From positions 1 to 43,870 of IMG/VR virus record IMGVR_UViG_3300025892_000042: a stretch of 43,870 bases of DNA; one strand, given 5' to 3'. A program made the translations under genes and the position numbers. The stretch's first letter is position 1. Each line of letters opens with the position of its first letter. Positions 33,471-43,352 of this stretch are shown here, in pieces. The DNA is from a virus. The notes under the pieces were generated by a model that saw only the letters and a program-made list of their open reading frames with translations, searched no databases and had not been told where the DNA came from.

Positions 33471-34018
33471 ATGTTTAGATATTTTACGTGCATGAAACTT
33501 TGTAGGCTACGTCTTTTTACATCTGGTGTAACAATTTTAGTCACAGCATGATACAGGTCTTCATTGTTGATCACAATTCTGTTGCCGATGGGTTCCAAGT
33601 ATTCGCCCTTGTCTGCATTGTCCTGTTTGAACAAAAACAATCCACCATCTTGAAAGTTCCAAGTGTCATTAAGAAAAAAGGTCACACCCACATAATCGAT
33701 GTCTTGTTTGTCCCAAGGCAGGAATCTGTCTTTGTGCCACGTGCTCACATAGGGATATTTCATTTCATGGTAACGCAGTGTGTGGTCATGTCCTGTGAGT
33801 AATTCTTTGGTGAAGTAACCTTGTTCAACCAACAAACCGAAAAAGAAATCTTTGGTTTCGTGATTGAGATAGAATAGATTACAATCATCTGTTTCGTGAT
33901 GATCTGTTTCATCATCATACCTTTCAAAACGTCCACCGTGCTGTGTGATATCATTTTGTATCAACTGATTAATTTTTGTCAGTTGTTCATCATTTAAAAA
34001 ATTATCTTTTATAATCAT
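33467..34018 (-). CDS. 2OG-Fe(II) oxygenase (prolyl-4-hydroxylase-like)
   Basis: A 183-residue jelly-roll protein with the full iron facial triad: His95-x-Asp97 (TWHKDRF), distal His157 (EDLYHAVTKI) and Arg170 (VKRRSLQSF) for 2-oxoglutarate, plus FLNDTW and GGLFLFK strands typical of the P4H family. Free amino acids, peptides and proteins are substrates of this family. It is flanked by an amidinotransferase and an aminotransferase with ATGA overlaps on both sides, pointing to joint action on a small molecule. Confidence 0.88.
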   Translation of the reverse strand: MIIKDNFLNDEQLTKINQLIQNDITQHGGRFERYDDETDHHETDDCNLFYLNHETKDFFFGLLVEQGYFTKELLTGHDHTLRYHEMKYPYVSTWHKDRFLPWDKQDIDYVGVTFFLNDTWNFQDGGLFLFKQDNADKGEYLEPIGNRIVINNEDLYHAVTKIVTPDVKRRSLQSFMHVKYLNI

Positions 34019-35109
34019 TGCAACTGTCCTTTCAAAACAGTAAAATATTCTTCTGTGGCATTTATGGGTATGATGAAAAATTTATGATCATCGCCCTTTA
34101 GCAAATCAAACAGTGTGCCGAACTGTCCCACTATGCTGTAACCTGCTTCCTCAAATATTGTTTTTGCTGTTGCCACAATGCTGTGATGCTGTGACATCAA
34201 TTGTTCCTCGTGCAGGATATCAATATATTTAATGCAACTCAACACACCCGGCAAACTGTAATTGTATGTAAAGCCGTGTTCCCAATCAAACTCTTCAGGC
34301 AACACATCGTCAATTTTTTCGTTGTACATGGTGATACTGAGAGGAAAAAATCCTGCTGTGATGGCTTTGCCCATGGTGAATATGTCTGGCTGAATAGGAG
34401 TTTGTTTCCAACCTGCAAAACTGCCAGTCTTTCCTCCGCCAATAAAAATATCATCCATAATCACAATCACACCTTGTTGTTGAATCTGTTTTATTTTGTT
34501 CCAAAATTCTTCTGTGTTGGGTCTTAACTGTTGTCCATAAGAACAAGTTTCCACCATGACACACATAACATCTTGCCAATCTACTGCGTTGATATCAAAA
34601 TCTCTTTTCAATCTAATCACTTGATCATATGGCTTTAGTGTGTAGAAAGGATCATTAAACAAACTGTCCCCCATGTTGTAATTTAAAAATGTGGATCCAT
34701 GATAACTGTTTTCAAAACACACAATCTTTGTGCGTTTGTGTTGTCCCACAAGTTTTTGATATGCACTGGCAAGTTTTATTGCACCTTCGTTGGCGTCTGA
34801 TCCACTCAATGCAAATATACTTTTGTATCCTGTCATAAGAAACAATTTATCAGACAGTTCATAACTGGGCTCATTCAAGTAGAGATTTTCATTCTGCACA
34901 ATGCTTTCTGCTATTTCTGGTTTTACTTTGATATTGTCATACACATAGTCTAATATATCGTGTCTATCAAATCCCAAAGTGAAGCAACCATAATGCAACA
35001 ACGGATCTATAATTTTCTTTCCGTCATCAATATAACCATATTGCCAATGTGGTTTTGCTACATTGGTTAATCTTTGTACACCTGGTATGAGTCCTTTTAA
35101 TGATTTCAT
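34015..35109 (-). CDS. PLP-dependent class III aminotransferase
   Basis: A fold-type I PLP enzyme of 364 aa, shorter than usual class III enzymes (about 400-450). Visible landmarks: LSGSDANEGAIKLA (102-115, phosphate-binding region), SYHGST (135-140), IMDDIF (Asp220, pyridine N) and GKTGSFAGW, and the Schiff-base Lys248 in FTMGKAITAGFFPL. It is likely to interconvert an amine and an aldehyde/keto group or move an amine, as ornithine aminotransferase or glutamate-1-semialdehyde mutase do. Its partner amidinotransferase releases ornithine, a possible substrate. Overlaps the downstream gene by ATGA. Confidence 0.88.
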   Translation of the reverse strand: MKSLKGLIPGVQRLTNVAKPHWQYGYIDDGKKIIDPLLHYGCFTLGFDRHDILDYVYDNIKVKPEIAESIVQNENLYLNEPSYELSDKLFLMTGYKSIFALSGSDANEGAIKLASAYQKLVGQHKRTKIVCFENSYHGSTFLNYNMGDSLFNDPFYTLKPYDQVIRLKRDFDINAVDWQDVMCVMVETCSYGQQLRPNTEEFWNKIKQIQQQGVIVIMDDIFIGGGKTGSFAGWKQTPIQPDIFTMGKAITAGFFPLSITMYNEKIDDVLPEEFDWEHGFTYNYSLPGVLSCIKYIDILHEEQLMSQHHSIVATAKTIFEEAGYSIVGQFGTLFDLLKGDDHKFFIIPINATEEYFTVLKGQLQ

Positions 35110-37410: not shown

Positions 37411-38274
37411 TTATTGTGGTATAAATGCATGGACAACTTTTTGTGCTAATTTTTTCCACTCAGCAAGTTCTCCAATTTCTTGTATGTGATGAGCAGTTGT
37501 TCCATCATGATAAGAACAACGAATCTGCATCATTCCTTTTTCAGGTCTTGCATCTGCTGTTACGCCTATCGCAGTTTGACAATCTCCGTTTACTAATTCC
37601 AACACATATCTTTCAGCCATCAATTCAATTGTGGGCCATTCTAATATTTGAGGATTCCATATGTCTTTCATTTTTACATCATTGCTTCTTATCTGCACAA
37701 CAACCTTGCCTTGTCCTGCGGCAGGCAACAATTCATTTTCTGGCATCACAGTGTGCTGAACTTCTTTGTTCAATCTATCCAAGGCACATTTTGCCATGAT
37801 GATGCCGTCCACTTCTTGTTTTTGTATTAATTCTAATCTTGTTTGAATATTTCCTCTTATGGGTACAAAACGTAAATCTGATCTTTGATCTCCCAACATC
37901 TTTGCTCTGCGTGGAGCACTTGTGCCTATTCTATATCCACTAGGTATAGAATCAAAATTTTCAAAAGGTCCTACCAATGCATCACGCCTGTCACCTTGTT
38001 CCCACACACAACCTAAAATTTCTGTTCCGTCTGCAATTTCTGTTCCCACATCTTTTGCACTGTGAATAGCACAATCTATTTCTCCTGCAAGGAGTTTGTC
38101 TTCTATTGTGGAACAAAATATGTGTTTACCACCCATTTCATGTATAGGAGTTTTTTGATCTATGTCGCCTTGACTTTTAATTTGAATCAGTTCATAAGGT
38201 TGAACTAAACCTGACGCGGCACCGTCTGCCTGTCGTATGGCGAGAGGAGATCCTCTTGTGCCAATTTGAATCAT
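37411..38274 (-). CDS. hemC: Hydroxymethylbilane synthase (porphobilinogen deaminase)
   Basis: HemC joins four porphobilinogens into hydroxymethylbilane, the linear tetrapyrrole on the way to haem, sirohaem and cobalamin. The start at 38274 gives 287 aa (E. coli 313) beginning MIQIGTRGSPLA, the normal N terminus. An earlier in-frame start would overlap the upstream gene. Conserved parts: GGKHIF (49-54), HSAKDV with catalytic Asp75, GDRRDALVG, IGTSAPRRAKML, PIRGNIQTRL, LLPAAGQGK, and Cys232 in NGDCQTAIG, the attachment site of the dipyrromethane cofactor. All essential residues are present. It is part of a late-box operon of tiny genes. Confidence 0.93.
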   Translation of the reverse strand: MIQIGTRGSPLAIRQADGAASGLVQPYELIQIKSQGDIDQKTPIHEMGGKHIFCSTIEDKLLAGEIDCAIHSAKDVGTEIADGTEILGCVWEQGDRRDALVGPFENFDSIPSGYRIGTSAPRRAKMLGDQRSDLRFVPIRGNIQTRLELIQKQEVDGIIMAKCALDRLNKEVQHTVMPENELLPAAGQGKVVVQIRSNDVKMKDIWNPQILEWPTIELMAERYVLELVNGDCQTAIGVTADARPEKGMMQIRCSYHDGTTAHHIQEIGELAEWKKLAQKVVHAFIPQ

Positions 38275-38281
38275 GATACTG

Positions 38282-38470
38282 CTATGCTCTGCCCCAAGGT
38301 ATTGGATTGCCTTTGTTGTCGACAACTAAATCGCTTGTATCTTTGTACTGGGCAACCATTATGCCTTTGCCTTTGCCTTCAGCGATCCATCTACAAGGTT
38401 TGATTTCTCTTTCGTTGTGATACCTTGTCAAGTGATTGGTAATGATACCTCTTGCTTTTACACCTGCCAT
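38282..38470 (-). CDS. Small protein of unknown function
   Basis: A 62-residue basic protein (MAGVKARGIITNHLTRYHNE, then IKPCRWIAEGKGKGIMVAQY). The second half looks like a small beta hairpin. It lies 7 bases before hemC and 2 bases after the preceding gene, in a tightly packed operon. I recognise no family; a small conserved protein of marine T4-like phages is likely. Confidence 0.65.
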   Translation of the reverse strand: MAGVKARGIITNHLTRYHNEREIKPCRWIAEGKGKGIMVAQYKDTSDLVVDNKGNPIPWGRA

Positions 38471-39720: not shown

Positions 39721-39749
39721 TCATTATGTGTTTTGAGCATACCACTTAT

Positions 39750-39757
39750 GCTAAATA
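39750..39757 (+). promoter_or_regulatory. Late-type box (GCTAAATA) before the riboswitch
   Basis: GCTAAATA, the CTAAATA form seen in marine T4-like phages. The predicted start at 39763 is one base before the first base of the riboswitch. Confidence 0.55.
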
Positions 39758-39763
39758 CATATA

Positions 39764-39808
39764 CGTTCAGGCATCAGGCCCGGAAGTAGGATATATCCGA
39801 AGGAACGC
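39764..39808 (+). ncRNA. Glutamine riboswitch (glnA / Downstream-peptide class)
   Basis: The conserved landmarks of the glutamine aptamer are all present in order: CGTTCA at 39764-39769, CGGAAGTAGG at 39781-39790, a short ATATAT loop and CCGAAGGAACGC at 39797-39808. CGTTC pairs with GAACG (P1) and GGAT with ATCC (P2/P3 region). This class controls glutamine synthetase and small 'downstream peptide' genes in cyanobacteria and marine phage sequences. A Shine-Dalgarno (AAAGGAGG, 39823-39830) follows 14 bases later; CACCT right after P1 could pair with AGGGTG beside it, which would link ligand binding to translation. Confidence 0.88.
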
Positions 39809-39835
39809 ACCTAACTGATAACAAAGGAGGGTGAT

Positions 39836-40033
39836 ATGAGCAGATTCAATCATCTACTTAAAAACTATACGAAAAATTCACAACTTGTCAAAAAGACAAT
39901 GGAACTGTTTCGTGCTAGAAAAGAAGTGGACATAAATGGAAACGGTACTTCTGGACACATGGTAAAACATGGTTCAAACAAAGGTAAAGTACTGGGACAT
40001 CGTTCTACAAAGTCCAATAATAATTGGCAATAA
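39836..40033 (+). CDS. Riboswitch-controlled small basic protein
   Basis: A 65-residue protein, MSRFNHLLKNYTKNSQLVKK then a helix and a Gly/His/Lys/Asn-rich second half (GNGTSGHMVKHGSNKGKVLG, then HRSTKSNNNWQ). It is not a known metabolic enzyme. It has a strong Shine-Dalgarno and sits behind a glutamine riboswitch, in the position of the small peptide genes of the Downstream-peptide class. The name of that class comes from peptides of this size. It may sense or modulate host nitrogen status, for example by binding an inhibitor or enzyme, but that is inference. Confidence 0.75.
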   Translation: MSRFNHLLKNYTKNSQLVKKTMELFRARKEVDINGNGTSGHMVKHGSNKGKVLGHRSTKSNNNWQ

Positions 40034-42749: not shown

Positions 42750-43352
42750 CTATTTCAGTTTGTATGTCTTCTGTAGTCTGTTCAGTAAGATACCATATGC
42801 TGGTAAAAATACTATTAGTCCTACTGCAATTTTGATCACCGTTTGTGATCCTGCAATCTCCATCCAGTTAGCCGCCATGTATTCGTCGGCACTGTTGTTG
42901 AAAGCCACTGCAAAGAAAGTGTAAGTGTCAATGATGTTTGCCGCGATAGTTGATACCGCTGGTGCTAACCACCAATTGTTCTTAAACCCTTCTCTGATGT
43001 ATTGAAACACATACACGTCCAGCATGGTACCAATTGCATAAGCAGTGGCACTTGCGAAACCAATTCTTACTGCGACCGATCCCGGTGCTCCTTCTGCCAA
43101 CACAACTGCTATGGATCCAATGATTGCCAAAGGATAAGCCGCCGCGATGGTTTGTCTTGCTATTGTTTTGCCCAACAGTCTAACAGTCAAGTCTGTTGCT
43201 ATCACAACTAATGGGAAAGTGAATGCCGCCCACGTCAATTTAACACCCAGTATTTCTACAGGTATTGCCACTAACGCATTTGAAACTGTGATCACGATAA
43301 CGTGCAGTGCCACTAATTTCATCAGCATTGATTTGTCTACGTTTTTAAACAT
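42750..43352 (-). CDS. yhhQ: Queuosine precursor transporter (YhhQ / VUT family)
   Basis: A 200-residue inner-membrane protein with about six hydrophobic segments. The family core is clear: a first TM (LVALHVIVITVSNALVAIPV), VVIATDLTVRLLGKTIARQT (the conserved TDxxxxxxGK...R), and IREGFKNNWWLAPAVSTIAA followed by NIIDTYTFFAVAF (the conserved SxxxxxxIDTxxFxxxAF). YhhQ takes up queuine-type 7-deazapurine bases (preQ0/preQ1). Length is usual for the family (about 220). A Shine-Dalgarno (AGGAG, 43358-43362) and two promoters precede it. Confidence 0.9.
   Translation of the reverse strand: MFKNVDKSMLMKLVALHVIVITVSNALVAIPVEILGVKLTWAAFTFPLVVIATDLTVRLLGKTIARQTIAAAYPLAIIGSIAVVLAEGAPGSVAVRIGFASATAYAIGTMLDVYVFQYIREGFKNNWWLAPAVSTIAANIIDTYTFFAVAFNNSADEYMAANWMEIAGSQTVIKIAVGLIVFLPAYGILLNRLQKTYKLK

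Follow-up and report, generated by a model that had tools for sequence, protein, structure and literature searches.

Why would a phage place a glutamine sensor in front of a single gene for a very small protein, and in which direction would such a sensor switch? Phage riboswitches have seldom been described, and what is controlled by phage glutamine riboswitches has hitherto been unclear or misassigned. We address the question at one locus of a marine T4-like phage, using the window (the complete 43,870-nt stretch of the IMG/VR record IMGVR_UViG_3300025892_000042). An initial annotation, made from the letters of the DNA, had proposed a glutamine riboswitch at a late start site controlling a 65-residue basic protein. 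The aptamer class itself is already known, as are its presence in cyanophages and in the phages Melnitz and Mosig and the small-protein targets that it has in cyanobacteria. The features of the locus are collected in Table 1.

Table 1. Coordinates of the riboswitch locus and of neighbouring genes in the window
Feature	Position	Strand	Basis
20-bp promoter block CATACC-N3-TATGCTAAATA (upstream element and late-type box)	39738..39757	+	motif conservation
CTAAATA late-type box	39751-39757	+	sequence
Predicted transcription start	39763	+	inferred from T4 late-promoter geometry
Glutamine-I riboswitch aptamer (RF01739)	39762..39811	+	50.9 bits; P2/P3 covariation
Aptamer stem P1	39764-39768/39803-39807	+	
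Aptamer stem P2	39770-39772/39778-39780	+	
Aptamer stem P3	from 39789-39790/39797-39798	+	
SD-masking helix, 5′ arm CACCT (first base equivalent to C60 of the solved aptamer)	39808..39812	+	covariation, ViennaRNA
Shine-Dalgarno AAGGAGG	39824..39830	+	sequence; conserved in relatives
SD-masking helix, 3′ arm GGGTG (overlaps Shine-Dalgarno 3′ end)	39829..39833	+	covariation, ViennaRNA
65-aa basic protein, phrog_32989 family, phage-only	39836..40033	+	phrog_32989 match, relatives, coding selection
Class-III aminotransferase, in a mostly unassigned minus-strand block	34015-35109	-	PF00202, E 6e-36
Hydroxymethylbilane synthase hemC, phage-encoded	37411-38325	-	TIGR00212 above cut-off
Queuosine precursor transporter, YhhQ type	42750-43352	-	TIGR00697 above cut-off

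The aptamer and the promoter block in front of it

The riboswitch had been recognised by three landmarks, CGTTCA and two further aptamer sequences, all of which are present in the window. When the whole window was scanned with cmscan, RF01739 (Glutamine) was the sole Rfam match; its score exceeds the gathering score of 35 bits (E 2.2e-8) and the match spans the full model, from 1 to 53. The initial annotation had named the glnA and Downstream-peptide covariance models as a check on its claim, and only the former scored above its gathering score. Because RF01704 (Downstream-peptide, glutamine-II) fell below its own in the same scan, the element is assigned to glutamine-I and not to glutamine-II. 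By family membership it is a genuine glutamine-I riboswitch, and the window copy would be expected to bind glutamine. Across 46 distinct leaders, the three-way junction of P1, P2 and P3 shows double changes in P2 and P3, with P1 invariant, and the core is near-invariant in 140 distinct aptamers, with a coupled change from A6-C21 to G6-U21. The exchange (G6-T21 in the DNA) was seen in 9 of the 140, including L226, L230-L233 and L235, and was never mixed; it is expected to retain the wobble geometry.

A late box had also been claimed, so placed that the RNA would begin one base before the aptamer. A TATAAATA-like T4-type late box, in the window version CTAAATA, is positioned to start transcription at the leader, and the geometry of T4 late promoters predicts a start immediately before P1, in agreement with the claim. 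The TATAAATA sequence has a single occurrence in the window. The CTAAATA 7-mer is not enriched window-wide (8 found, 8.7 expected), so the box alone proves nothing, and we relied on conservation across phages. Of 39 leaders of the family, 38 have a TAAATA box before P1, at a distance of 3-14 nt (mostly 6-9), and this conservation favours reading the box as a promoter element. In the window's subgroup the box forms part of the 20-bp CATACC-N3-TATGCTAAATA block. A search of the entire IMG/VR collection with CATACC-N{1,5}-TATGCTAAATA found 48 stretches with an exact match; 36 of them have a glutamine riboswitch 6-7 nt downstream, followed by a gene of the 65-aa-protein family. The spacing is N3 in every one of these 36 and mixed in the remaining 12. 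The block was found once in the window record and once in the related contig G001; the five records other than the window gave none or one partial match each. The CATACC-N3-TATGCTAAATA block looks like a dedicated promoter. Judging by its box, it may be recognised by T4-type late machinery and used late in infection. Sigma-70-like sites and terminators near the 65-aa gene were no commoner than expected by chance.

The 65-residue protein and its possible roles

A 65-codon gene follows the aptamer, in keeping with the proposal that the switch would control one small basic protein. The product was described as lacking a known function, and this description holds: its net charge is +10 and its pI 10.8, and neither Pfam nor NCBIfam gave a match. 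It belongs to phrog_32989 (E 9.6e-12), a family with no function recorded. At least 80 relatives were found in viral contigs of IMG/VR, with 44-76% identity over the matched stretch, and the relatives in isolates are almost all from Pelagibacter phages of several morphotypes, together with one uncultured-phage fosmid. In the family alignments (A1 and A2) the N-terminal part is a basic helix region, and the EVDINGNGTSGY segment is near-invariant. Codon-position differences within the family number 1056, 733 and 1887 at the first, second and third positions, respectively, and single-base codon changes are synonymous in 1031 cases and non-synonymous in 396. The third-position bias and the synonymous excess indicate that the ORF is a translated gene under purifying selection.

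Searches for more distant similarity gave little. PF14105 (DUF4278) was unmatched by the window protein and had no consistent match across 38 relatives, and a profile search of the PDB with the family returned designed repeat proteins or marginal matches, with no relevant relative. AlphaFold2, run on A2, predicted only a helix at residues 5-27 (pLDDT 67, pTM 0.33) and no confident fold. Scanning genome contigs with the family alignment for a host homologue yielded four matches (three on MAG contigs and a weak one of 36 residues in Pseudomonas libanensis), which we read as viral contigs or chance and not as a host gene. Two relatives are unusual in their setting. At L051:2578-3159, a relative shares its reading frame with an AdoMet decarboxylase domain at the N-terminal end (PF02675, E 7e-16), and HTVC008M (KC465899 18226-18384) has an unannotated relative, without an obvious in-frame start, between gp2 and gp48.

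In nearly all of the closer relatives (L002-L035, at least 50% identity over the matched stretch) the aptamer precedes the start codon by about 30 nt. No aptamer was found at the distant relatives (L036 onward), HTVC008M or HTVC019P. The aptamer accompanies the gene in T4-like lineages and was not found with the podophage, siphophage and HTVC008M relatives of phrog_32989. Since the protein family is present in other pelagiphages without the riboswitch, the protein's task does not of itself require glutamine control. The gene neighbourhood of the family is not conserved beyond close relatives. As for the phage itself, of whose genome the window is a fragment, its terminase is 94% identical to that of G012 and 68-77% identical to those of four larger contigs of up to 185 kb, and the nearest isolate terminases are those of Pseudomonas jumbo-type phages (PA5oct-like), at 53%. 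Neither the window nor five related contigs yielded a psbA gene; this absence, together with the nearest terminases being those of Pseudomonas phages, indicates that the host is probably a heterotroph.

Our best guess is that, under nitrogen sufficiency, the protein would bind a target of host or phage origin in the late phase of infection. It is possible, but we do not favour the idea, that the protein is instead a virion or assembly component, with the riboswitch serving just to match the output of a structural gene to the nitrogen supply. Relatives do adjoin late structural genes (those for the baseplate wedge and tail lysozyme, and the portal in L058), and they occur in the gp2/gp48 region of HTVC008M and near DNA maturase B of HTVC019P. 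The neighbours vary between lineages, however, and in other phages the same switch precedes unrelated tiny basic peptides. A second and rather less likely alternative, drawn from analogy, is that the protein could act like a glutamine synthetase inactivating factor, so that glutamine would trigger a shut-off of nitrogen assimilation. Cyanobacterial IF17 is likewise small and riboswitch-controlled and acts on glutamine synthetase, and the phage peptides share its small size and basic character. This analogy has to be set against the failure to match any known family or relevant PDB structure, the occurrence of the protein without the switch in other pelagiphages, and the rise of host glnA transcripts during infection in two SAR11-pelagiphage systems (PMC12753301). 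Whatever the target, the suggestion that the phage, by sensing glutamine, subjects infection to nitrogen-state control is plausible.

The Shine-Dalgarno-masking helix and the direction of switching

The Rfam end of the aptamer and the ATG are separated by 25 nt in the window. Just 3′ of P1, the aptamer tail, C39808-T39812, is complementary to G39829-G39833, and ViennaRNA gives the resulting helix a pair probability of 0.98-0.99 in the window. In all 101 distinct tail/SD combinations taken from viral leaders, with the register left unselected, the helix has a mean length of 4.37 bp, as compared with 3.67 ± 0.07 when tails were shuffled among leaders (0/2000). Unguided RNAalifold analysis of 46 diverse viral leaders predicted P1, P2, P3 and the masking helix together. 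In this alignment, which was restricted to leaders in one register and whose sequences are related, 99.1% of the cells of the helix are paired and 16 are double-change cells, compared with 3.7 after shuffling (0/500). Compensatory examples include CACC/GGTG, CACT/AGTG, CATCT/AGATG and CAATCT/AGATTG. Other viral groups apparently mask the Shine-Dalgarno sequence in a different register, such as CTTTAC/GTAAAG in the YRG group. On this comparative evidence the masking helix, which was absent from the initial annotation, is a conserved translational expression platform.

The position of the helix suggests how it might respond to glutamine. In the solved glutamine aptamer, G22 and G23 are disordered in the ligand-free state, and long-range contacts, including G23-C60, form upon binding (PMC5393176). 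Because C39808 is the equivalent of C60, which pairs with G23 in the bound state, glutamine binding and full masking of the Shine-Dalgarno sequence compete for one base. We therefore consider it likely that the element is a translational ON switch. The phage late-type promoter would produce a short mRNA whose leader consists of the glutamine-I riboswitch and the masking hairpin. By default, the tail would pair with its downstream complement and hide the ribosome-binding site. Upon binding of glutamine, the C60 equivalent would be captured in the long-range pair with G23, which would deprive the masking helix of its closing pair and allow translation of the 65-aa protein. We hold this complete model, with its late-type promoter, glutamine-dependent unmasking and 65-aa product, to be probable also as a whole; glutamine binding, the ON direction and late timing are its inferred components. 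In the fold model of the window, removal of C60 costs approximately 3 kcal/mol, and a 4-bp masking helix is still predicted.

Alternatively, the element could be an OFF switch, in which glutamine stabilises P1, the masking helix stacks on P1, and the protein is produced under glutamine shortage, such as might follow its depletion by the synthesis of phage proteins. The masking helix is indeed compatible with P1 in the fold model, both coexisting in the minimum-energy fold, and coaxial stacking of the two could let glutamine tighten the helix. We think that this is unlikely, given that the bound-state G23-C60 pair takes a base from the masking helix and that the cyanobacterial glutamine-I and -II riboswitches studied activate expression (PMC6316151). 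Least probable is that the aptamer has lost glutamine sensing and persists as a relic or decoy, leaving the leader merely a structured 5′ UTR: some relatives score only 38-45 bits and L258, which is closely related to the window, has an alteration in the conserved core, but the near-invariance of the core in the 140 aptamers with its coupled exchange, the full covariation of P2 and P3, and the finding that every riboswitch-bearing phage record searched has a single element or a single tandem pair all argue against this idea.

Glutamine riboswitches and small proteins in other phages

The window element resembles the glutamine-I riboswitches typified by the Synechocystis gifB leader (glnA RNA, RF01739) in its aptamer consensus, three-way junction and conserved core, in preceding a small basic protein of regulatory size, and in the mode of activation seen in cyanobacteria and proposed here. 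It differs in belonging to a T4-like phage that lacks psbA, in its position immediately behind a late-type promoter, and in having a phage-only protein family and a masking helix seeded at the C60 position. The glutamine-II (Downstream-peptide) riboswitches of picocyanobacteria, which are found with DUF4278 proteins, also place a glutamine sensor before a protein of 17-100 aa, but their aptamer is of a pseudoknot class; DUF4278-like YRG peptides lie behind other viral glutamine-I switches, not behind that of the window. Our search of the literature indicates that the C60-seeded masking helix, the promoter block, the link between the protein family and the switch, and the reassignment of the Melnitz riboswitch presented below are apparently undescribed.

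A pattern scan of IMG/VR for the aptamer gave at least 120 matches, in which the downstream ORF was picked by a simple rule based on the Shine-Dalgarno sequence, start and length. Among the matches listed, tiny basic proteins follow nearly all of the viral glutamine riboswitches examined, and they fall into more than 10 unrelated groups, mostly of 26-65 aa. Some are the YRG peptides, and PF14105 matches viral members of that group. Two product groups, of 122 and 195 aa, were rejected as mis-picks by the rule, because a YRG ORF of 16-18 codons lies closer to the aptamer.

Melnitz (infecting OM43) and Mosig (infecting SAR11) are, like the window phage, marine T4-like phages; their hosts are streamlined heterotrophs, and each has one glutamine-I aptamer (PMC9004378). 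In contrast to the window, their aptamers precede peptides of 32 and 51 aa. In Melnitz (MZ577097, L208:1504-1673), the aptamer at 1504-1552 is followed on the plus strand by a 32-aa ORF starting at 1575 (MTLYQQWCYLKAQKEYRRRQKILMYFRIRLKG), which is unannotated, an antisense ORF being annotated there. The riboswitch was published as controlling a tmRNA (PMC9004378). The tmRNA match ends at L208:1496, upstream of the aptamer start, so that control of the tmRNA is probably wrong, which suggests that the claim needs revision. In Mosig (MT647606, L225:523-751, minus strand), a late-type box, CATAAATA, is followed by the aptamer and the 51-aa peptide, a member of the SRPR..DDPR group; the arrangement matches that of the window, but the protein is unrelated.

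A single switch, with an expression platform that can be defined and its own dedicated promoter, is seen repeatedly in many marine viral contigs, and in nearly every case a tiny, unannotated basic protein follows it. We tentatively suggest, as a generalisation that may well not hold, that it is a modular device shared among marine T4-like phages, both those of heterotrophs and those of cyanobacteria, in which a dedicated promoter and glutamine-gated translation would serve at least 10 unrelated tiny basic payloads that retune the cell, or the timing of lysis, when glutamine is sufficient; the window protein would be one of several independent payloads acting on host nitrogen metabolism. The recurrence offers a testable route to the coupling of infection to nitrogen state in marine phages, together with a list of candidate peptides. 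Tandem glutamine riboswitches before single tiny ORFs were also observed, at L097, L101, L117, L139, L153, L154, L167, L184, L190 and L193.
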